The notes beneath the pieces are model-generated. The model worked only from the letters and a program-made list of their open reading frames with translations, was not told where the DNA came from and ran no database searches. 64,000 nt of DNA from Rheinheimera sp. (GTDB lineage: Bacteria > Pseudomonadota > Gammaproteobacteria > Enterobacterales > Alteromonadaceae): the NCBI GenBank assembly GCA_003543135.1, contig DPJG01000006.1:1-64000 (forward strand), in the 5' to 3' direction. Positions 13,640 through 30,384 of this stretch are shown piece after piece. The position numbers and the translations under genes were made by a program. Every line of letters starts with the position of its first letter. Within the stretch, counting starts at the first letter, position 1.

Positions 13640-16600
13640 ATGACACAAGCGCCATCTATGATCCTGAGCCAGGGCTCTATCGGGCTTGGCAGCATTGCTG
13701 CTTTATCCTTGTTGTATTTGCTGGTGCTGTACAGTGTCGGCCGGCTCGGCCGTCGTATTACCGGCGGTCATAAACTGGCGCCCTGGGTGTTTAGTTTTGC
13801 CCTGGCCATTTATTGTACCTCCTGGGCTTTTTATGGTGTCACAGCCCAGGCGGCAGTGAATGGCTGGTGGATCCCACCCACTTATATCGGCTCTTTGTTA
13901 TTGTTCTGGTTTGGTTTTGGCCTGATAGCCCGTATTGCCATTGCCTGTCGCAGATACAAAATTACCTCAGTGGCCGACTTTATTGCTACCCGTTATGGCC
14001 ATTCCCGGCTTTTAGCAGTACTGACCACATTAATAGTGCTCACTGCTGTGATCCCTTATATAGCGCTGCAACTGCAGGCGGTGTCTACCAGCATCAACGC
14101 GCTGGTGCAAAGGCCTGAGCATCCACTTTGGTATCAGGACACCGGCCTTTATGTCAGCTTATGGCTGGCGGTGTTTGCCATGTTGTTTATTGGCCGCAGC
14201 GCCAAAGCGCATCAACCTAACCCAGGGTTAATGACTGCCATCGCTTTTGAATCTCTGGTGAAACTGATTGCATTGCTGGCAGTGGGTGTTTTTGTCTGCT
14301 GGGGTTTATATGACGGTATTGGCAGCATTTTTAGTCAGGCTGCCAACCACCCGGCAGTGCAGAGTCTGCAACAAAAAGCGCTGCCCACTTCAGTGTATTG
14401 GATCCATGTGCTTTTGGGTTTTGTTGCGACTTTATGTTTGCCACGGCAGTTTCATGTCAGTTTTGTCGAAATTCAGCATTTAAAACATCTGCATCTGGCG
14501 CGCTGGGTGTTTCCACTGTATTTGCTGCTGATGAGCCTGTTTACCCTGCCCATTGCCCTGGCTGGTTTAATGCTGCTGGGGCCAGAAGCCAATATAGATT
14601 TAGTGGTGCTGCAACTGCCGTTGTCGGCCAATCGCACCGATATGGCGCTGCTGGCCTATTTAGGTGGTTTTTCTGCCGCCACTTCGATGGTGATAGTCGC
14701 CACTGTGGTGCTGGGTATTATGATCAGCAACGACTTACTGACCCCACTGCTATACCGGCTGCAACAAAGACCGGTAGACGGCAAGCCACTGATTAAAATG
14801 GTAACTTTACGCCGAGCCTCGATGCTGACGGTGCTGACGCTGGGTTATTTGTATTACCTGTTGATAGGCACAGAAACAGGTTTGGCCCAGCTTGGCCTGA
14901 TGGCATTTGCGCTGATAGCGCAGTTAGCACCGGCTATTATTCTGGGCCTTACCAGTCGTAATATTAACCGTCAGGGGGCGCTGGCCGGCTTAAGTAGTGG
15001 TGCTTTTATCTGGGCTTATATTTTGTTATTGCCAGAGCTTGGCCGTGCCGGTTTAGTCAACTGGCACTGGCTGCAGCAGGGGCCTTTTGGTATTCAGTGG
15101 CTCGCGCCCTCCGGCCTTTTTGGTGGCCAGTTTGACAGTATCAGTCTGGGGGTGTTGTTAAGCCTGTCAGTTAATGTGCTGATGTTGCTGCTGGTCAGTC
15201 AGCTCAGCAGCACCCGCCTCAGTGAATGGTTGCAAAGCGGCCGTTTTTTGCGTCGCGGCAGCCCGGAGCGCAGCAGTCAGGACGTTGAACTCACAGTGCA
15301 GGACTGTTATTTGCTGGTACGGCGTTTTGCCGGTGAACGTGAAGCCAAACAACTTTTACAGCGTCATTTAAAAACCAGCAGCCCCGACTTTAATCAAAAA
15401 GCACCGCTGAATTTACAACAAGGGGTGGAGCGTACTTTATCTGCAGTGGTGGGCGGCGCTTCAATGCGGCTTCTGCTCAACGCCACCAGTAAAAACAGTC
15501 AGTTACCGCTAGAGTCTGTGGCGCGTTTTGTTGACGAAGCCAGCCAGGTGTATTTATTTAATCAGGCGCTGCTGCGCGCCACTATCGACAATATCAGTAT
15601 GGGCATCAGTGTGGTGGACGCTGACTTAAGGCTGATTGCCTGGAACCAGCGTTACCTGGAGATGTTTGCCTATCCAACCGGTTTTGTGGAGGTGGGTAAA
15701 CCTGTAGCTGAGCTTATCCGTTATAACGCCGAGCGTGGCTGGTTAAGCGCCAGCCCGGTCAGCCCGGAGCTTTTAGAGCAGGAAATTCAAAAACGGCTGA
15801 ATTATCTGCGCCAGGGCAGCAGTTATAAATTTCAGCGCCGCCAGCAGGATGGCCGGGTGTTTGAAATGCAGGGCAATCCGCTACCGGGCGGCGGTTTTGT
15901 CACCACCTACAGCGACGTCAGCTCTTTTATTGAAGTACAACAAGAACTTGAGCACAGTAACAATACGCTGGAGCTGCGTGTGACAGAGCGCACTGCTGAG
16001 CTTGAGCAACTCAACCAACAACTGGCTGACGCCAAACAACAGCTGGAAGAACAGACCATCAGCAAAAACCGCTTTTTTGCCGCCGCCAGCCATGACTTAT
16101 TACAACCTTTTAATGCGGCAGCGCTGTTTTGTGGCCTGATCCGCGAAAAAACACAGGATCCAGAGATTAAGCAACTGAGTAAAAACCTGGCCGCTTCGCT
16201 CAATTCTGCCGAAGAGCTGCTGGCCAGTATTCTGGAGCTGACCAAACTGGACTCAGGCGTAGTGCGCGCCGAACCCAGACCTTTGGCGCTGCAACAGTTG
16301 CTGGAACAAAGTGGCCGCGAAGCTCAGGTGCTGGCGGCCGAAAAAGGCCTGCAGTTCAGTTGTTGTGTAAGTTCACTGACAGTACAAAGCGACGGCAGGT
16401 TATTAAAAAGAGTCATTCAAAACTTTATCAGCAACGCCATTCGTTACACACCACAGGGCAAAATTCTGCTCGGGGTGCGCCGGATAAAAAACCAGCAGGG
16501 CGAACGTTTTGCCCGCATTGAGGTGTGGGACACAGGCCCTGGCATAGATAAAGACAACCAACGGCTGATTTTTCAGGAGTTTCAGCAAGGGCCCCAAGCC

Positions 16601-23021: not shown

Positions 23022-23287
23022 GATTTCTGCTCCTGCAAAAGGCTTCTGCTGCCCGCTATTATCCGGCCAAATCGTACTGCGCCGTGACGAAAAAGGGACG
23101 ACAAAACCCCGACACGGACCCGACTTGAGCCCGACTTACCGGTTTTGCCCCTGTGAGGCGAAGGGGAAATGGGCTGTTTAACATTCTGCCCTTAACACTG
23201 TGCCCATGCACCCGAACTCATAAGCATGACCTGAGCCAAAAGCCCCGGATAACACGGCTTATGATGGCGGAGTGAATCGACCAGAGT

Positions 23288-23779
23288 TTAATAGCCATCG
23301 GCGACCAACTTCAAAGCCATACCACCCACTGCGCTGTCTTCACTCAGGCTGATATCAACTATTGCACCACGCTCTTGCGAACCATAATGAATGGAAAAGG
23401 AAGCACTATTTATCGTCAATTGATCATCAAGATTGCTGGCTGGCGACAAGCATAAAATTGCCTTTTTTACCGCAACGGCTGCGAACTCAGCTGAGGCATG
23501 CTCCATCAGATAGCTGCATACATTTTTAGCCGCAGGATAATCTCCATGCTCACAACGCTTCGCAAGCAATACCGCCCCCGGCGTGTCTTTAAAGTTGGCC
23601 CCCCAGGACGTTCGAAAGACCAACTGCCTGGTTTCGTCTGGTTTGACTGAACCGACAAATGCCTGAAGCACATCACAAAACTCTGTGGATTGCTCTGCAG
23701 AAGCGACCGGATAAATACAGCAGGCCGTCAAAAAACATATCGAAGTTACAGAAACTTTTATTGCCCAGCTCACTATCAT
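23288..23779 (-). CDS. Secreted protein of unknown function at the distal end of the integron
   Basis: This 163-residue protein has an N-terminal signal peptide (about residues 1-28, ending PVASA-E) and four or five cysteines in the mature part that could form disulphides (C35, C76, C88, C109 approximately). No family is recognised. It follows the eroded attC9 and begins after a tandem repeat with ribosome-binding-like units, so it may be the last gene cassette. No convincing attC follows it. The start ATG at 23779 is set by GAGGTGA upstream. Confidence 0.65.
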   Translation of the reverse strand: MIVSWAIKVSVTSICFLTACCIYPVASAEQSTEFCDVLQAFVGSVKPDETRQLVFRTSWGANFKDTPGAVLLAKRCEHGDYPAAKNVCSYLMEHASAEFAAVAVKKAILCLSPASNLDDQLTINSASFSIHYGSQERGAIVDISLSEDSAVGGMALKLVADGY

Positions 23780-23789
23780 CTTGCTGTCA

Positions 23790-23826
23790 CCTCAGTATCA
23801 CCCACCTCAGTATCACCTCAGTATCA
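23790..23826 (-). repeat. Three copies of an 11-bp repeat carrying Shine-Dalgarno-like cores
   Basis: CCTCAGTATCA occurs at 23790-23800, 23805-23815 and 23816-23826. Read on the minus strand each unit ends in TACTGAGG and is followed by TG, giving three successive GAGGTG-type ribosome-binding motifs ahead of the 163-residue secreted protein. The last unit overlaps the R' end of the eroded attC9. Confidence 0.85.
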
Positions 23827-23926
23827 ACTCAAGGGCGGGCAACTTGTTACAAGCGCAGCGGCCAAAGACCGGAAGAAGCTGGAGCCGGCTCAGACCAGAT
23901 AGCGGCCTATTGTGATTGCGTTTACC
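23822..23926 (-). repeat. attC9, eroded recombination site
   Basis: This stretch of 105 bp between the 137-aa and 163-aa genes keeps the GCAACTTGTTAC core and the CG-rich arms of its sisters. Its outer boxes (GTTGATA and GGTAAAC) no longer match the consensus GTTRRRY/RYYYAAC. It is probably inactive. Confidence 0.5.
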
Positions 23927-24335
23927 AGGTCTTTGCCGGTTGATGACTACGAACGATGACGTAATAACAAATAGCCAATAACAAAAAGCGCAGGAGCATT
24001 GAAACTATCTCGTTTAATTCTGCTGACGCTTGTAAAAGATAATAACCCTGCAATAAAACAAGCGGAGCAAGCAGGAACAGATAAAACTTATTGTCCGCGC
24101 TTTTGAAAACAAACTTAGCAGCATAAGCGAACAGCAAAAACGCCAATGCCAACGGCAGCGCGATAATAAAAAAGTCGACCACAATAAAGGCCATAAAAGC
24201 GGAAATGGGCATAAGCATGTTAAGAAGATCTGCAGACACTGATATTGCTGCGCCATAACCAACAATCACAATAGAAGCAAACGCCAGTGCAATACCTAAA
24301 ATTAGTGCCATTAAATAACTTTTAAACTTAACCAT
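23922..24335 (-). CDS. Cassette 9: four-helix membrane protein
   Basis: This 137-residue protein has four hydrophobic helices (about residues 7-30, 43-70, 84-100, 107-127) and a short charged C-terminus. There is no recognisable family. AAGGA lies 9 bp before the ATG. A GTTATAC box (24353-24359) marks the cassette start, but no complete attC separates it from cassette 8, so the two genes may now move as one unit. Confidence 0.7.
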   Translation of the reverse strand: MVKFKSYLMALILGIALAFASIVIVGYGAAISVSADLLNMLMPISAFMAFIVVDFFIIALPLALAFLLFAYAAKFVFKSADNKFYLFLLAPLVLLQGYYLLQASAELNEIVSMLLRFLLLAICYYVIVRSHQPAKTW

Positions 24336-24352
24336 CTACTTATTCCTTGTAT

Positions 24353-24359
24353 GTATAAC
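24353..24359 (-). repeat. Remnant attC8 (R' box only)
   Basis: GTTATAC on the minus strand fits the GTTRRRY box. The 61 bp between the cassette 8 stop and the cassette 9 start are too short and lack an R'' partner (ACCTAAC was expected). The site appears deleted. Confidence 0.45.
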
Positions 24360-24396
24360 ACTATGCTCAGCGGCAGTTTGTAATGTGCTTTTCTCT

Positions 24397-24720
24397 TTAT
24401 GAAACTGCACTATTGTATTTAAACCAGATTTTTAAAGTAGCGTTTATTGCGTATAAAGAAACCTTGTCTGACAACACAGCTGAAGGTTCTGGTACTTGAT
24501 TGTTTCCCTTAAAAAACGCAACCGGATTATTTTTTATCACGGCTTCCCAACTATGGTTTTTTCCAGCCACAGATGCCAGATATCGTTTTCGCGCCAAATG
24601 CTCAAACACATCACTTAAGGTGCTATTGATTGAAACTTTAAAGCTATATGCATGAGGAGCAGCACAATCATCTCCCATACAAACGCTATCCCTTTCTACT
24701 TCTACCAAAAATTCAGTCAT
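24397..24720 (-). CDS. Cassette 8: protein of unknown function
   Basis: This 107-residue soluble protein has no recognised family. It has a central MGDDCAAPHAY segment with two cysteines nearby (about residues 14-19) and alternating hydrophobic/polar strands. The start at 24720 (MTEFLVEV) lies 10 bp inside the cassette. The AGG of the crossover box GTTAGGT itself serves as the ribosome-binding site. An upstream extension to 24759 would lie in the preceding attC and is not used here. Confidence 0.7.
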   Translation of the reverse strand: MTEFLVEVERDSVCMGDDCAAPHAYSFKVSINSTLSDVFEHLARKRYLASVAGKNHSWEAVIKNNPVAFFKGNNQVPEPSAVLSDKVSLYAINATLKIWFKYNSAVS

Positions 24721-24729
24721 AGTCGATTC

Positions 24730-24789
24730 ACCTAACGCTTGAATTAAGCCGAGCCGCAAATCGGCTTCGGCCTGAATGAATTGTCAGGC
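24730..24789 (-). repeat. attC7, 60-bp class-1-like site
   Basis: This is a short attC with outer boxes GCCTGAC and GTTAGGT and an imperfect inner stem (AGCCGA/CGGCT arms). Its left arm AATTCATTC and right arm TTCAAGCGTTAG resemble the 60-bp aadA-type attC sites of class 1 integrons as I remember them. The R'' box differs from the GTCTAAC expected from the cassette start by two bases. Confidence 0.8.
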
Positions 24790-25089
24790 ACCATCGACCG
24801 GCTGCCAAAACGAAATGTCCGGCGGCCCGGCGAGAAACTTGCCAGCGGCCTGTATAAAGGACTGGATGTGTGGCTGTTGCATGTGCGGACCAAGAAAGAC
24901 CTCTTGGCTTGGCCAGGTTTCAATCAAAGTAAATGCTGTCGGGTCCGATGAGTCCTGCAGCATGGTGATACCTCCACAATCCGGCTCCGAGGCCCGGACT
25001 GTTGCAACCAAAGCAGCGATCTCTCGCCGTACAGTGTCAACCTGGGCTGGCAATGCACGGTACCTGACGATAACGATTGAGTTATTCAT
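24784..25089 (-). CDS. Cassette 7: ABM-domain putative monooxygenase
   Basis: This 101-residue ferredoxin-like alpha/beta protein belongs to the antibiotic-biosynthesis-monooxygenase family (YgiN-like). It has the N-terminal strand IVIVRYRALPAQ, the central GGITMLQDSSDPTAFTLIETWPS and the His-containing GPHMQQPHIQSFIQAA helix. Family members oxidise quinols or aromatic rings without cofactors, usually as dimers; the substrate here is unknown. GGAGAG precedes the ATG. The stop codon TGA lies inside the R'' box of attC7. Confidence 0.85.
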   Translation of the reverse strand: MNNSIVIVRYRALPAQVDTVRREIAALVATVRASEPDCGGITMLQDSSDPTAFTLIETWPSQEVFLGPHMQQPHIQSFIQAAGKFLAGPPDISFWQPVDGA

Positions 25090-25114
25090 GGGCTCTCCGG
25101 ACGTCTATTGTGGC

Positions 25115-25192
25115 GTCTAATGCCCGCCACACACCCGAGTAACTTGTTGCGGGTTCAGCGTCAAAGGCGCGTTGTGCTGGCGTTTGTTATAT
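25115..25192 (-). repeat. attC6, 78 bp
   Basis: R'' ATATAAC is at 25186-25192 and R' ATTAGAC at 25115-25121, with a GCAACAAGTTACTCGG-type central core. The R' box has A instead of the G that normally precedes the cleavage point, so recombination here may be reduced. Confidence 0.82.
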
Positions 25193-25501
25193 GCCGGTTT
25201 CAATTTTTAAGTACCGATTTTTCCCTAACGAAATGTAATAGAGCGGCAGAAATATAGATTTAAAAAAGTTAGATCCAAAAGAATTTTTCAGCACAATTTT
25301 TCCAGAACGAATATCACAAACATTAAATTCTGGGCTTGAACACCAATCAATAACAGCCTTCAGCGTTTTGCTACCTTCAGGCAAGGTTATTTTTTGTGTT
25401 GTGCCACGTTTTATAACAGCTATTTCTTTACCGTCCACCAATAAATGATAGTCGCGAGCCATATCTGCAAATTGTTTTGGTCTTGTGACTTCGATTTCCA
25501 T
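25187..25501 (-). CDS. Cassette 6: protein of unknown function
   Basis: This 104-residue protein has a beta-rich N-terminal half (HLLVDGKEIAVIKRGTTQ) resembling small PEGA-like beta-sandwich proteins. A WCSSPEFNVCD segment carries two cysteines (about 53 and 62), and the C-terminus is more hydrophobic and aromatic (SIFLPLYYISLG), perhaps membrane associated. The function is unknown. AAGG precedes the ATG. The TAA stop is supplied by the R'' box of attC6. Confidence 0.75.
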   Translation of the reverse strand: MEIEVTRPKQFADMARDYHLLVDGKEIAVIKRGTTQKITLPEGSKTLKAVIDWCSSPEFNVCDIRSGKIVLKNSFGSNFFKSIFLPLYYISLGKNRYLKIETGI

Positions 25502-25516
25502 TACAACCTTGTAGGC

Positions 25517-25609
25517 ATATAACTACCAAATTTAGCGCGGGAAAACGCGCATGCGTTTTCCCGTCGCAGCCCATGCGCAGCGTGGGCGATTAACATTTGC
25601 TTGTTAGGC
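25517..25609 (-). repeat. attC5, 93 bp with an internal hairpin
   Basis: R'' GCCTAAC is at 25603-25609 and R' GTTATAT at 25517-25523. Off-centre lies a perfect 11-bp inverted repeat (CGGGAAAACGC/GCGTTTTCCCG, 25538-25563) not seen in the other attC sites. Confidence 0.82.
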
Positions 25610-26047
25610 ATTAGTTGATGCACTGCCGCCCCTCGCTGACCTTAACAATTTTCGTTGCTTGAGACTTATTCCGGCCTTGATACCTGCGAATAGAACTCCA
25701 AGCAAAGAAATGTATTCGGATACCAGAAATGGAAGCGGTTGAATAGGCTCCGGTTCAGCTCCTAAATACGATACAAAAAACGCCAATAGTGCAGATGCGA
25801 CTTCATCGCTAAGCAAAAAAGCAAGAAGCGTATGAGCGACAGGATACTGATCTGTTCTGTACGTGATGTGAGCAAAGATAGCCATGTACACGAGCAGCAT
25901 GATGCAATGATTCAGAAAGTAATTGAACAACACCACATCGGGAGAAAATGATGATGGATGCAATTCAAAGATGCCAGAAGCGATACCGGCCATCAGTAAC
26001 AAAAGAGCGTGGATAACAATAATCTTCCAGTTCAAAAATGGCTCCAT
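25604..26047 (-). CDS. Cassette 5: small integral membrane protein
   Basis: This 147-residue protein has four hydrophobic helices (about residues 8-28, 38-60, 72-92, 105-125) and a basic tail. No family is recognised. The start at 26047 (MEPFLNW) lies only ten bases after the crossover point; upstream codons would belong to attC4. The GTTAGG of the crossover box acts as ribosome-binding sequence. The TAA stop lies in the R'' box of attC5. Confidence 0.75.
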   Translation of the reverse strand: MEPFLNWKIIVIHALLLLMAGIASGIFELHPSSFSPDVVLFNYFLNHCIMLLVYMAIFAHITYRTDQYPVAHTLLAFLLSDEVASALLAFFVSYLGAEPEPIQPLPFLVSEYISLLGVLFAGIKAGISLKQRKLLRSARGGSASTNA

Positions 26048-26050
26048 ACT

Positions 26051-26128
26051 GCCTAACGCCCCGCGCATGCGCGCGAACTTGTGAGCGTCGCTGGGGCCAC
26101 AGGCCCCGAATGACGCGGATTGTTATGT
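26051..26128 (-). repeat. attC4, 78 bp
   Basis: R'' ACATAAC is at 26122-26128 and R' GTTAGGC at 26051-26057. It is a close relative of attC1, with the same GCGCGCATGCGCGGG arm and CACAAGTTCG core. Confidence 0.88.
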
Positions 26129-26680
26129 TGTACTGAACTCTGAACGGAGCAAGCCGAAGCATTTGAGATCATGAAACCTATTCTTCCAATATCCACATTC
26201 ACGCCGAAGCCCCTCCTCTTTAAACCCAAGCCGACGGAGCAATGATTCAGATGCGCTATTGCCGGGAATTGTATCTGCCTGAACACGGTGCAATTCACCA
26301 CAAGGCAAATAACCCGAAAACCCAGCAGCAATAATAGCGCGCACAGCTTCTGAGGAATAACCTTGTCGCCAAAACTCAGGATGCAGGTCATAACCGATAA
26401 CGGCATTACGCATTATACTGTTCCACGAGTTAAACCCGCAGGTGCCTATCAATCGACCAGATGACTTTAACCGGATCGCCCATCTGATGCCCTGTTGTTC
26501 TTCATATCTTGACTTAAAAAGACTAATCAAATTGGCAGCTTGACTATGTTCCCGAAACACATCTAAATCGTAGTATTCGACCACAGATGGATTGGAAAAC
26601 AAATTGAACAGACCAGCTTCATCATCAACACGAAGTTCTGTAAGTAATAGACGCTCAGTTTCTAGTGATGGAAATACCAT
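26123..26680 (-). CDS. Cassette 4: GNAT-family N-acetyltransferase (RimJ/RimL-like)
   Basis: This 185-residue acetyltransferase begins with the family-typical LETERLLLTELRVDD. The acetyl-CoA pyrophosphate loop is in PEFWRQGYSSEAVRAI (about residues 98-114), and NSASESLLRRLGFKEEGLRR (about 145-164) is the C-terminal signature. It probably acetylates an amine on a small molecule or protein N-terminus; such enzymes are common integron cargo, some giving resistance, but the substrate is unknown here. AAGGA precedes the start. The stop is shared with attC4. Confidence 0.88.
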   Translation of the reverse strand: MVFPSLETERLLLTELRVDDEAGLFNLFSNPSVVEYYDLDVFREHSQAANLISLFKSRYEEQQGIRWAIRLKSSGRLIGTCGFNSWNSIMRNAVIGYDLHPEFWRQGYSSEAVRAIIAAGFSGYLPCGELHRVQADTIPGNSASESLLRRLGFKEEGLRRECGYWKNRFHDLKCFGLLRSEFSTT

Positions 26681-26696
26681 CTAAATTCCTTTTTCA

Positions 26697-26777
26697 ACAT
26701 AACTATCGCCTAAACGGCGAGCAACTTGTTGCGAGTCCTGCGGACGAAGGCCGCCATGTTTAAGGCGCTTGTTATAA
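26697..26777 (-). repeat. attC3, 81 bp
   Basis: R'' TTATAAC is at 26771-26777 and R' GTTATGT at 26697-26703, with the CGCAACAAGTTGCTCG core shared with attC2 and attC6. Confidence 0.87.
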
Positions 26778-26780
26778 GCA

Positions 26781-27044
26781 TCACTTAACAACTCTTTTCG
26801 GCCCCTCTAAAAACCACATAATAAATGTACATTTTTTACAAATAAGAACTGATGCACTTCTATTTGCCCAATCCAAATTTATAAATGTGAGGCCCGCGGT
26901 ATTTAACTGCGCTTCTCCAGTTTCAAAATGCTGATGTCCGCAATGGATGCACTTTGCGTTTACATCATTGACTGTATATTGATCAACATTTAAAGCCGCC
27001 GCAGCTCCTTTTAAACCTTTGCCTAGAGTCTTCAAAAATGACAT
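26781..27044 (-). CDS. Cassette 3: zinc-ribbon protein of unknown function
   Basis: This 87-residue protein has two CxxC knuckles (CIHCGH at about residues 32-37 and CKKC at about 69-72) that would bind one zinc ion. Between them lies a beta-rich stretch, and a basic-amphipathic N-terminal segment (SFLKTLGKGLKG) precedes them. The pattern fits a small zinc-ribbon domain that may contact nucleic acid or protein. AGAGGAG precedes the ATG. No closer relative is recognised. Confidence 0.78.
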   Translation of the reverse strand: MSFLKTLGKGLKGAAAALNVDQYTVNDVNAKCIHCGHQHFETGEAQLNTAGLTFINLDWANRSASVLICKKCTFIMWFLEGPKRVVK

Positions 27045-27059
27045 CGGTACTCCTCTAGC

Positions 27060-27140
27060 TTATAACGCTCGCCACAAACGCGAGCAACGTGTTGCGAGTC
27101 GAGAGCCCAACGGGCGCGCTTTTGATGGCGTTTGTTAGCG
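27060..27140 (-). repeat. attC2, 81 bp
   Basis: R'' CGCTAAC is at 27134-27140 and R' GTTATAA at 27060-27066, with the core GCAACACGTTGC. Confidence 0.88.
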
Positions 27141-27160
27141 CATCTGAACTCGAGCACATA

Positions 27161-28294
27161 CTAGGTAAACAAAGCCTCAAGCTCGGCTTTTTGTTCAGAG
27201 CTAAGCTCCGTTAACGTTTTCAATGCATCTTTAAGTGCAGCTTTGGCATCTTCTGCCATTTTGAAATATAAGTAAGCTTTAATTAAGGCTGTATGCGCAC
27301 CTAAAGAATGAGGATAATTTGCTCGATTCCATATAAGTAATGCCAACGCATCTTCTTGCCGGTTTAAATATTGTAACCACGCAGCGTAACCGTTAGCTTT
27401 ATCTTGCGGGATTATGAGCTCTGTTTTGAGAAGTTTCGAGCGACTAGCAAATTTTGCCTGCAAATCAGCCAAGGTTTTTGGCTCACCCTCTGGAATAGGC
27501 CATTCGGAAAACAGATATTTTAATGCGGCATACTGCCCTTGTAGTACGGTCGTATTGTGCGTTTCATGGCTAAAAGTCTGTGATGCGACAGTCAACTTGT
27601 CAGATGGATAACGTGCTAACAAATCAACAAACCCTTGATACGGCTGTGTCATGGTTGTTTCTTCATTAGCTATCGATACATACAAGCGCCCTTGTAACTG
27701 ATCGCTTTTTAAAGCCTGCTCAGCTAATCCAAGCAATTGCTGGTTATTCCAATATAAAGATGGGCTGATGGCGATAACATCATTAAACAAGCCGGGTCGT
27801 TTCACCAATGCATTAATAGCAAACTGACCACCATGAGACGTGCCGGACAGCATTTGATAGTCCAAAGTACGGTAATTCTGTTTCACAAAAGGGATAACTT
27901 CTTTCTCGACAAAAGCTAGAAATCTATCTGCATTTTCCAGTTGATTAGGGTTTTGCTTCTCAAAAGGGGTTACAGTCAGGTCTCTGGCACGTGTTTCAGG
28001 CGGGTTAACAATGCCGACAACAATCATTGCCGGCATCTGCTCAAATTTTGCTAAATAATCTATTGTGCCAGCGGTATGTGGCCCCTGAATATCGCCATCG
28101 GTCAGGTATAGTACTGGGTAACGGTCCTGACTATTTTGATAGCCAGCGGGCAGGTAAATCACCATGTTACGCTTTTCGCCAAGTACATCACTATCAATCA
28201 TCTGCTCTTTCAATACAGGCAGGCTCGCGGCAGCCCAGCTATTCCAGTGGCTTCCGATGACAAGTAGCAGTAATCCATAAACTATTTTTTTCAC
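27161..28294 (-). CDS. Cassette 2: secreted esterase with C-terminal helical repeats
   Basis: This 377-residue protein has a signal peptide (about residues 1-22) and a putative-esterase (PF00756-type) alpha/beta domain. It has the YPVLYLTDGD strand (about 58-67), nucleophile GTSHGGQ (Ser about 152), an acid candidate in ANEET and a His in FSHETHNT (about 244-249). The last 90 residues form TPR-like helices. Relatives include siderophore esterases of the IroE/BesA type, so ferric-siderophore hydrolysis is possible but unproven. It is the longest cassette gene here. It starts at GTG 28294 with AAGGAAG upstream; the N-terminus fits export to the periplasm. Confidence 0.85.
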   Translation of the reverse strand: MKKIVYGLLLLVIGSHWNSWAAASLPVLKEQMIDSDVLGEKRNMVIYLPAGYQNSQDRYPVLYLTDGDIQGPHTAGTIDYLAKFEQMPAMIVVGIVNPPETRARDLTVTPFEKQNPNQLENADRFLAFVEKEVIPFVKQNYRTLDYQMLSGTSHGGQFAINALVKRPGLFNDVIAISPSLYWNNQQLLGLAEQALKSDQLQGRLYVSIANEETTMTQPYQGFVDLLARYPSDKLTVASQTFSHETHNTTVLQGQYAALKYLFSEWPIPEGEPKTLADLQAKFASRSKLLKTELIIPQDKANGYAAWLQYLNRQEDALALLIWNRANYPHSLGAHTALIKAYLYFKMAEDAKAALKDALKTLTELSSEQKAELEALFT

Positions 28295-28347
28295 TGTTCT
28301 TCCTTAAATTTGAGAATACTAACCTTCACTAAGGTGGACATTTTTAA

Positions 28348-28425
28348 CGCTAACGTCCCGCGCATGCGCGCGAACATGTGAGCGTCGCAGCAGCCGCAGG
28401 CTGCATATGACGCGGCTTGTTATGT
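28348..28425 (-). repeat. attC1, 78 bp
   Basis: R'' ACATAAC (28419-28425) begins right after the stop codon of cassette 1, and R' GTTAGCG lies at 28348-28354. The arms GCCGCGTC/GACGCTC and the inner GCAGCC/GGCTGC stems give the bulged hairpin recognised by the integrase. Confidence 0.88.
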
Positions 28426-28761
28426 TTAACTAAACAACTTTGAATAACTGGCACGTTCGATATCCATAACTTCAACGGTTAAAGAGCAATTTTTAAGCTC
28501 AAGCTTCTGAAGTTGAGCTAATACTGATTTTGATAGTACTTGCTTTTGTTCAACAGTTCGGCCCGACAGTATTTTCAAAGTTACATGGATAAAATCTGTT
28601 TTTTCCGGCCCGGTTAAATAACTGTGGTAAATAATTGCTCTTACTTTGATATCACTACCATCAATTTCGAATAGCTCTGATTCCATAGCACCTGAAAATA
28701 CGAGCGGTAATATCAATTCACTGTTCAGTGATTCCGAATGTTCAACTATGCAATGTGGCAC
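28426..28761 (-). CDS. Cassette 1: 5-carboxymethyl-2-hydroxymuconate isomerase-like tautomerase
   Basis: This 111-residue protein begins Met-Pro-His-Cys-Ile-Val-Glu, the start typical of the CHMI (HpaF/HpcD) branch of the tautomerase superfamily, in which Pro1 is the catalytic base after Met removal. The central FIHVTLKILSGRTVEQKQ also matches CHMI. The E. coli enzyme acts in homoprotocatechuate breakdown; no such pathway genes are near, so the substrate is uncertain. It starts with GTG at 28761 (GGAG upstream). As the first cassette it is the most likely to be expressed. Confidence 0.83.
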   Translation of the reverse strand: MPHCIVEHSESLNSELILPLVFSGAMESELFEIDGSDIKVRAIIYHSYLTGPEKTDFIHVTLKILSGRTVEQKQVLSKSVLAQLQKLELKNCSLTVEVMDIERASYSKLFS

Positions 28762-29003
28762 GTACTACTCCAAAACATAACAATTTAATAGAAGGCGAAG
28801 CGCCCGCAAGACGAACATTTTTCTGCCTTTTTTCATGATTTTTACTCATGCCAAACTAGCGCTTATGTAACTCTATTTCAACATTTTTTTCTTAAATCAC
28901 TAAAATTATGGCCGACAAAATCTATACAGAAGCTATGCAAGTTGGTGGATTTTTTACTCATACCGAACCACTGTTTATTTAAACAGCTATTCGGGTGCAA
29001 AAA
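28762..29003. promoter_or_regulatory. attI region and divergent promoter of intI and the cassette array
   Basis: The 242 bp between cassette 1 and intI hold the attI-cassette junction (minus-strand G^TTATGT, 28775-28781), a direct repeat of GATTTTTACTCATGCC (28837-28852) and GATTTTTTACTCATACC (28948-28964), and a LexA box next to intI. I could not identify a convincing cassette promoter (Pc) with both elements. Confidence 0.75.
28971..28986 (+). promoter_or_regulatory. LexA (SOS) box in the intI promoter
   Basis: CTGTTTATTTAAACAG is a perfect CTGT-N8-ACAG palindrome with an AT-rich centre, 17 bp before the intI ATG. LexA binding here would hold the integrase silent until DNA damage, as known for intI1 and Vibrio intIA. 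Confidence 0.9.
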
Positions 29004-29975
29004 ATGGCCTCACCTTTTTTAGATTACGTCAGGGAGTTTATGGTGTCGCGGCGTTATGCCAAACGCACTGTTGACACCTATGTGTATTGGATCAGGTTTT
29101 ATATTTTGTTTCACCATAAACGCCATCCGAATCAGTTGTCTGATGCCGAGGTAGAGCAATTTTTGTCTTACCTTGCCAATCAACGGACTGTAGCCGTCAA
29201 AACTCAGGCCACCGCTTTGAATGCACTGAGTTTTTTATATCGCCATATTATTTTACGTCCGCTGTCGCTAAACCTTAATTTTAATAAGGCGCGCGTGCCA
29301 CAAAAACTCCCTGTGGTTCTTACCCGCATTGAGGTTCAGCAGCTGCTGGCTTTAATTGATCCCAAATACAAACTACTGGCACAGCTAATGTATGGCAGTG
29401 GTTTGCGCCTGATGGAGGCTGTAAGGCTGCGGGTGAAAGATATAGATTTTGATTATTTATCTGTGATGGTCTGGCAAGGCAAAGGCAATAAAAACCGTAG
29501 GGTTACGCTGGCTCCGGAGCTGGTCCCCGCTTTAAATTTACAGATCGAGCATGTACAACAATATTTTCAGGTAGATTTGCATAACCCGGCATATGCCGGT
29601 GTCTGGTTACCTTTTGCGTTAGCGCGCAAATATCCGGCCGCGCCAAAAGAAATCGGTTGGCACTATTTATTTCCGTCTGGTGTTCTTAGCCAGGATCCTG
29701 AATCAAAGTTGATACGCCGGCATCATTTAGACGAAACCACAGTTCGCCGGGCGATAAAAATGGCAGCTCAAAGGGCAAAAATTCAGAAGAATGTGACCTG
29801 CCATACGTTACGACATTCTTTCGCTACACATCTGTTGGAAGCAGGAGTAGACATCCGCACAGTGCAGGAACAACTGGGACATAGTGATGTAAAAACCACC
29901 CAAATTTATACCCATGTGCTGCAACGTGGTGGCAATGCAGTCAAAAGCCCTTTGTCGTTATTGTTGCAGTCTTAA
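29004..29975 (+). CDS. intI: Integron integrase IntI (tyrosine recombinase)
   Basis: This 323-residue tyrosine recombinase inserts and excises gene cassettes at attI and attC. An N-terminal SAM-like domain (residues 1-85) is followed by the catalytic domain with Arg in YGSGLRLMEA (about 134), the His-x-x-Arg of CHTLRHSFATH (about 267-270), LGHS and the nucleophilic Tyr in TTQIYTHV (about 302). The insert LARKYPAAPKEIGWHYLFPS before the HxxR box is diagnostic of IntI and absent from phage integrases. ATG 29004 is taken; GTG 28995 is possible. The gene is intact and runs opposite to the cassettes. Confidence 0.96.
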   Translation: MASPFLDYVREFMVSRRYAKRTVDTYVYWIRFYILFHHKRHPNQLSDAEVEQFLSYLANQRTVAVKTQATALNALSFLYRHIILRPLSLNLNFNKARVPQKLPVVLTRIEVQQLLALIDPKYKLLAQLMYGSGLRLMEAVRLRVKDIDFDYLSVMVWQGKGNKNRRVTLAPELVPALNLQIEHVQQYFQVDLHNPAYAGVWLPFALARKYPAAPKEIGWHYLFPSGVLSQDPESKLIRRHHLDETTVRRAIKMAAQRAKIQKNVTCHTLRHSFATHLLEAGVDIRTVQEQLGHSDVKTTQIYTHVLQRGGNAVKSPLSLLLQS

Positions 29976-30384
29976 ACTTTATCTATCCAAGCTTTCAGAG
30001 CGCCATCAGCTGCCAAAAAATCCCCCCCCGTTTAGCGAGCAGTTGTTTTGGCCGGTTTTGAGGTTTTAAGACGCCAACTGTTTGAGACGACTGACGCTAG
30101 CAGCCGTCGAGTTTTGGCGGCGCCTCAAAAGCGAGTCAAAACAACGGGCTTTCGAGCGATCTCGGGGTCGTTTTTTGCGTCACTTTTTGTCGATACAAAA
30201 GTGACTCGCCCGCGGAGGCGAGTCTCCGCTGCTACAGCCCCTCAGCTGCAAGCTGAAATTAAAAGATGCTGCATCGACTTGATCAGCTGCAATAATGCAG
30301 TCGCATGCACGTTACCACAGTTACAAGTTATTCTTCAGCAACAGAGGTTAGTTGCAGCATTAACAACAGATGCTGAGCTGCCGC
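29976..30384. other. Intergenic region after intI
   Basis: This 409-bp stretch between intI and the cyclase has no supported gene. It contains a run of eight C residues (30022-30029) and two adjacent hairpins (30179-30224). A rightward open frame crosses it and the end of the cyclase gene but shows no domain, is rich in low-complexity residues, and lacks a ribosome-binding site. Confidence 0.55.
30179..30224. repeat. Twin adjacent palindromes (REP-like element)
   Basis: GTCACTTTT/AAAAGTGAC (30179-30205) is followed at once by GACTCGCC/GGCGAGTC (30203-30224); the two stems share bases. Elements with this layout recur between genes in many gammaproteobacteria. Confidence 0.75.

Follow-up and report, generated by a model that had tools for sequence, protein, structure and literature searches.

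The 64-kb stretch of DNA analysed in this study (positions 1 to 64,000 of contig DPJG01000006.1, hereafter the window) belongs to a 3.99-Mb Rheinheimera sp. genome in 34 contigs (G000). It contains the gene of an integron integrase (intI, 28995-29975, plus strand, 326 amino acids, alternative start at 29004) preceded by a LexA-type box, CTGTTTATTTAAACAG (28971-28986, plus strand), and an attI site, with an array of gene cassettes to the left of these on the minus strand, from which intI points away. The G+C content of the array (41-45% per kb at 24-29 kb) differs from that of the surrounding DNA (47-54%). The nearest named genome with respect to IntI (98% identity) is that of Rheinheimera sp. 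4Y26 (G015), which is referred to below as the sister genome. A preliminary description of the window, based on the nucleotide sequence alone, had interpreted the locus as a complete chromosomal integron; its account of the anatomy proved correct except for two blemishes in the attC sites.

The integrase is intact and carries the IntI-specific patch (around residues 206-228), as had been described. It scored 470.9 bits against the NCBIfam profile TIGR02249 (cut-off 265), and the closest solved structure by sequence is that of Vibrio cholerae IntI4 (2a3v, E 2.7e-131). Residues R138, H270, R273, H296 and Y305, which we take to be the catalytic ones, are all present; in an alignment of 82 rows (this protein, a second IntI of the same genome and IntI from 80 loci) the number of rows with the identical residue is 82, 82, 82, 81 and 81, respectively, the remainder being gaps. 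The window contains two sites of the form CTGT-N8-ACAG, one of which is the LexA-type box. It is identical in seven relatives (L008-L014), with a single base change in another (L015); LexA control is reported for many integrons in the relevant passage of PMC3108266. The other site, at position 14858, is a possible LexA box of another gene. In three relatives, each from a different species (L013, L014 and L015), intI is interrupted at one and the same position, after the RHSF motif, by a shared insertion that brings in an in-frame stop, and the intI of L026 is disrupted by a different insertion.

The attI junction (28710-28781, minus strand; this interval marks the junction side, the core lying on the intI side) has its crossover at 28781/28780. 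DNA homology with eight relatives (L008-L015) starts at 28775-28779, i.e. at this crossover, in agreement with the single attI junction noted previously. Seven attC sites, delimited by hand on the minus strand, follow at 28348-28425 (attC1), 27060-27140 (attC2), 26697-26777 (attC3), 26051-26128 (attC4), 25517-25609 (attC5), 25115-25192 (attC6) and 24730-24789 (attC7, a short site). Their alignment contains 12 consensus pairs, at eight of which both sides have changed in at least one sequence. The preliminary description had all seven R'' boxes mirroring the first bases of their own cassettes. This holds at 7/7 bases for six sites, but not for that of the ABM cassette, in which 4/7 bases match; moreover, the R' box of attC6 (ATTAGAC) is devoid of the invariant G. 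The two eroded attC that had also been mentioned are indeed present at the distal end.

A covariance model built from the seven attC stood in for IntegronFinder. Applied to both strands of the window (E<=5), it produced eight matches, all located inside the array and on its strand, namely the seven sites (by construction) and the eroded site at 23815-23895 (25.1 bits). An independent test was provided by 22 other loci, which yielded 86 matches at E<=0.1; all but one (85) share the strand of the array and lie on the same side of intI as it does. The scoring of attC by such a model, which the preliminary description had proposed as a check, supported its account. Rfam, searched at gathering thresholds, gave no match in the window.

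Comparison with the sister genome revealed which cassettes differ. Identity to the DNA of 4Y26 amounts to 88-91% for the left flank, to 93% between 28778 and 36000, and to 91-94% for the distal array (23178 to 25525); the flanks, attI, intI and the distal cassettes are shared, and 4Y26 has one extra single cassette in the distal stretch. The five attI-proximal cassettes of the window (C1-C5) have no match in the integron of 4Y26, which carries seven other cassettes, each with an attC match, between attI and an attC5-like site, and then another single cassette. The break between the shared attI side and the replaced cassettes coincides with the attI crossover. The gain and loss of cassettes that a comparison of sister genomes had been expected to reveal was observed as a swap of five cassettes for seven. 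The order of genes is not conserved in the attI-proximal half, as it would be among ordinary chromosomal genes, while the distal half is common to both genomes; the difference in the proximal half ruled out an interpretation of the cassettes as ordinary conserved chromosomal genes. The attC5-like site of 4Y26 is 97.8% identical to attC5, but stands behind a different gene. Since similar sites occur in L018, L020 and L021, attC of this type are widespread in the genus and do not mark a position.

The DNA of C1-C5 was also searched for in 22 genomes of the genus, and the following are among the matches listed. Another array of 4Y26 contains C3 and C4 side by side, as a block of 1013 bases delimited by crossovers (96% identity). 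C2 with attC2 was found in G013 (87%) and G007 (85%), and a match in G004 stops inside attC2. C5 is 95.6% identical to a cassette in the integron of another species (G003), although the two platforms are only 80.3% identical, suggesting that it was transferred after the divergence of the platforms. To judge from these comparisons, the genus has several arrays that contain copies of the same cassettes. The origin of C2 as a cassette newly formed from a chromosomal esterase gene was considered and rejected: the relatives of C2 (in G013, G007 and G004) belong to arrays of small genes on one strand, with attC matches and no intI match, so that exchange is the simpler explanation.

Taken together, the intact IntI gene with its LexA box, the attI site, the seven attC with conserved pairing, the differing cassette content of the sisters and the breaks at crossovers lead us to assign a probability of about 95% to the interpretation that the element is a complete chromosomal integron of a Rheinheimera-like aquatic bacterium, i.e. 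a platform of a known kind. The following features of a complete integron were found: an IntI with its specific patch, attI beside intI, attC with paired R and L boxes in one direction, and exchange at crossovers (from genome comparison only). The integron score, the attC model, the attI crossover and the turnover of cassettes relative to the sister all bear out the preliminary description on this point. The integron is real and probably active. According to the known mechanism, DNA damage would lift LexA from the intI promoter, IntI would cut the folded bottom strand of attC at R', and circular cassettes would exit the array or insert at attI; recent cassettes would therefore adjoin attI, and distal ones would stay and erode. 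Several points weigh against this interpretation. The junction at attC6 looks dead, because its R' has no invariant G, and so do the distal ends. A promoter scan for Pc produced two promoter-like sites compared with 2.9 expected in shuffled sequences, a number not above chance. Finally, the at least 17 attC matches (E<=0.05) found in six places of this genome are a lower bound, given that 150 of 548 first-look candidates were scored.

The cassettes, all on the minus strand, carry a mixed set of small accessory genes, for which, as a set, we claim no single role. Pfam and NCBIfam were searched with IntI and nine cassette proteins (C1-C9). The Pfam cut-off was exceeded by a CHMI-like tautomerase (C1, 28354-28780, open reading frame 28426-28761), a putative exported esterase (C2, 27066-28353, 27161-28294), a GNAT acetyltransferase (C4, 26057-26702, 26123-26680) and an ABM-fold protein (C7, 24736-25120, 24784-25089); a zinc ribbon protein (C3, 26703-27065, 26781-27044) remained narrowly below it (22.7 vs 23). 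No Pfam family above the cut-off was found for two small membrane-type proteins (C5, 25523-26056, 25604-26068, and C9, 23828-24358, 23922-24335, with an eroded attC at 23815-23945) or for two orphans, of 104 amino acids (C6, 25121-25522, 25187-25501) and 107 amino acids (C8, 24359-24735, 24397-24720, whose attC is eroded), and none of C1-C9 exceeded an NCBIfam cut-off. An exported-type protein encoded past the last eroded attC (C10, 23288-23779) is shared with 4Y26 (90% protein identity) and is possibly an old cassette.

Relatives of individual cargo proteins were found in 16 (C6), four (C8), five (C3) and one (C5) of the 295 genomes of the order searched with each query, this genome included. 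A relative of C1 in Vibrio campbellii (56% identity) has an attC match directly behind it, and a relative of C4 (58%) adjoins the intI of Pseudoalteromonas ostreae. Of the 15 other loci tested for C6, three have its relative flanked by attC matches and a fourth represents a weaker case, and most C6 relatives lie outside integrons according to the attC model; no attC match was obtained at the loci of C8 (three tested) or C3 (four tested), nor at that of another C3 relative (L203). C6 (25187-25501) represents a small family without a Pfam name, in which R7, R16, Y18, W53, C54 and S56 are invariant over 15 rows (out of 17; L189, with an internal stop, and L190, with no open reading frame found, were left out). 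L195 and L196 were left out of the C8 alignment. In V. campbellii, a segment of a linear 77-kb record filed as a plasmid (L204, NZ_CP030790.1, 62961-69281) contains same-strand small genes with attC matches and resembles an integron array.

The preliminary description suggested that several cargo genes could encode new adaptive or anti-phage functions. A portion of PMC12409362, citing Darracq et al. 2025, states that, of 179 cassettes from V. cholerae, at least 16 (about 10%) were reported to be phage-active, and four of the cassette proteins described above (C5, C6, C8 and C9) have no family above the cut-off. Nevertheless, the Pfam, NCBIfam and PADLOC searches provided no evidence supporting the suggestion. 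PADLOC, searched at E<=1 with ten proteins including C10, gave no match for nine of them and only weak ones for the zinc ribbon protein (best 16.5 bits, E 0.0013); judged by such matches, the resemblance of the cargo to known defence systems is not beyond chance level. The folds that can be named are those of enzyme families, and C8 had no match at E<=0.01 in 50,697 phage records, which says little either way. Sequence profiles of C6 and C8 found no solved relative better than E 0.09. We therefore consider it unlikely that some of these genes are new anti-phage systems. It is more improbable still that the locus is a former integron, the integrase of which is no longer used and the array of which is only decaying: the eroded distal sites, the dead R' at attC6 and the broken intI copies in L013-L015 and L026 would fit such a history, but intI is undamaged, as are its LexA box and five proximal attC, and the proximal half has been replaced since the split from 4Y26. 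The occurrence of this IntI type in differing gene contexts of related species, and a dispersed repeat 48 bases behind intI, might also be taken as signs of a mobile, class 1-like integron borne on a transposon or plasmid. The flanking genes, however, are collinear with those of 4Y26 on both sides (no search for transposases was made in the window), and no cargo gene is a known resistance gene by the Pfam or NCBIfam cut-offs, which leaves this explanation with scarcely any probability.

The interpretation of the locus as a functional integron may be extended by observations concerning attI. The attI region of the window matches five loci in which no intI match was found: L225 in the same genome, L210 in 4Y26, L212 (G007), L213 (G004) and L221 (G017). 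These orphan attI copies head cassette arrays in five genomes; a search for intI at E<=10 gave nothing better than 0.6 within 6 kb, and a LexA box is not present at any of the five. L225 and L210 represent one chromosomal locus (flanks 92.7% identical), but the DNA separating attI from the distal stretch that they share comprises one cassette in the former (the attC of which scores only 17.3 bits, E 0.19) and, in the latter, about 9.6 kb with 15 attC matches (E<=0.5), including the C3-C4 pair that stands in the intI-linked array of the window. In both, the R'' of the first cassette mirrors the attI junction at 7/7 bases. A core of 71 bases (28778-28848) is conserved in intI-linked and orphan copies alike: relative to the window, it differs at 8-9 positions in the orphans and at 9-11 in the eight intI-linked relatives, whereas the adjoining 119 bases have diverged far more in the orphans (46-48 differences) than in the intI-linked relatives (19-22). 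When attI copies from the same genome were compared, the contrast between core and adjoining DNA was seen in three of five pairs (p 4e-5, 2.8e-4 and 3.3e-4).

These data might indicate that a single SOS-controlled integrase, that of the window, inserts and removes cassettes in trans at several integrase-less attI sites, in which case the arrays would be live branches and not fossils. We regard this proposal as tentative, with somewhat less than an even chance of being correct, since a number of results weigh against it. L225 and L210 differ from each other to a similar extent in the core (6/71) and in the rest (12/119, p 0.8), a result that gives no evidence of constraint acting after intI was lost; the divergence beside the core could predate that loss. 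Of the remaining same-genome pairs, one exhibits a weak contrast (12/71 and 33/119, p 0.11) and the other none (L221 with L011, 5/71 and 2/119). L221 reaches the end of its contig 967 bases past attI, which leaves room for an intI beyond; G017 also has a separate intI-linked attI (L238). In addition, the limit of the core was set where the matches to L018 and L038 stop, and the differences in cassettes could have arisen by excision or homologous recombination alone. A gene of 579 amino acids, resembling that of a gamma-glutamyltransferase, lies at the distal end of the L210 array (L210:4535-6274) and, with 88% DNA identity, in another array of the genome under study (L218:2541-4280).

The platform shares with sedentary chromosomal integrons such as that of V. 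cholerae the IntI family (2a3v being nearest), the arrangement of attI and the attC array, and the LexA box at intI. It differs from them in that the array is small, the attC are less uniform (60-93 bases) and the genus as a whole does not share the site. Sedentary integrons usually have more than 20 cassettes, according to the part of PMC12409362 concerned with them; here, seven clear and two eroded attC were found. The term "sedentary", applied to the locus in the preliminary description, is appropriate inasmuch as the site is kept in 4Y26; it does not fit the presence of the same IntI type at other chromosomal sites in relatives, nor the count of seven to nine attC. The side arrays of this genome and of 4Y26 resemble clusters of attC sites lacking integrases (CALIN) in having attC and no intI match, but unlike CALIN, five arrays of the genus are headed by a copy of attI. 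The mobilisation of CALIN in trans is given as known in a statement of PMC12444791. As described in PMC9024848, the detection of attI by IntegronFinder 2 is confined to class 1, and for this reason orphan-attI arrays would be easily missed. Among the papers listed in open-access literature, none dealt with this integron or with attI heading integrase-less arrays, which does not prove that none exists.

The platform itself is one more environmental integron. It stands out from the routine by its orphan attI arrays and by how clearly the traffic of cassettes is recorded: it offers a well-resolved natural experiment, in which sister genomes reveal the cassettes that differ, the arrays between which they moved and breaks at the expected bases. 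Should the orphan attI be in use, a single integrase would maintain several arrays, and the counts of integrons and CALIN in genomes would therefore need rereading.

An IntI above the cut-off is encoded in 18 of the 22 genomes of the genus. The site of the platform is kept between this genome and 4Y26, and other gene contexts occur in related clades. A close relative of the ggdef gene next to the platform was found in 10 genomes of the genus; intI adjoins it in two (G000 and 4Y26) and is absent from the stretch covered in seven, and in one the contig ends inside ggdef. The genes to the right of intI place the related rows in at least six contexts, including gcvP in R. riviphila, with five rows having no flank common to others. 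The IntI tree requires seven changes for seven labelled groups (the minimum possible being six), with eight of the 31 rows carrying no label. The hydrolase gene of the left flank is only 48-57% identical and located elsewhere in other genomes of the genus, and no clean empty site could be read.

A second complete integron is present in the same genome at gcvP (L088:17812-18771, L089:1-2112; C34:309811-313612), with an IntI 45% identical to that of the window and five attC matches of its own. 4Y26 has no second IntI at gcvP and only one above the cut-off. We found no difference distinguishing this situation from that of other genomes with two intI; several intI occur in more than one-fifth of integron bearers, as stated in an excerpt of PMC2426708. 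The gcvP site harbours different IntI types depending on the species, the 45% type in this genome (L088) and that of the window in R. riviphila (L038/L162). In the region upstream of the second intI (L088:18772-19060), inspection by eye revealed no LexA-type box. It contains two palindromes, TTACTGAGA-NN-TCTCAGTAA, together with part of a third, which might serve a different regulator as operator.

The window has, 48 bases behind intI (30023-30265), a copy of a dispersed, hairpin-rich repeat about 240 bases long, which has 26 matches in the genome. Further copies were observed at L089:2202-3762, L210:3631-3794 and 14324-14497, and L225:3424-3628, and in L222, L223 and L218. The repeat occurs within 2 kb of five of the six attC places of the genome, a number reached in none of 100,000 random placements, in a test that was devised after the pattern had been noticed, with contigs that break at the repeat and an incomplete attC list (150 of 548 candidates scored). 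In view of these circumstances, the idea of a transposon-like unit made of this repeat was not adopted and is retained as a remark. A gene which we take to encode an IS110-type transposase interrupts the copy of the repeat that lies in the gcvP integron.

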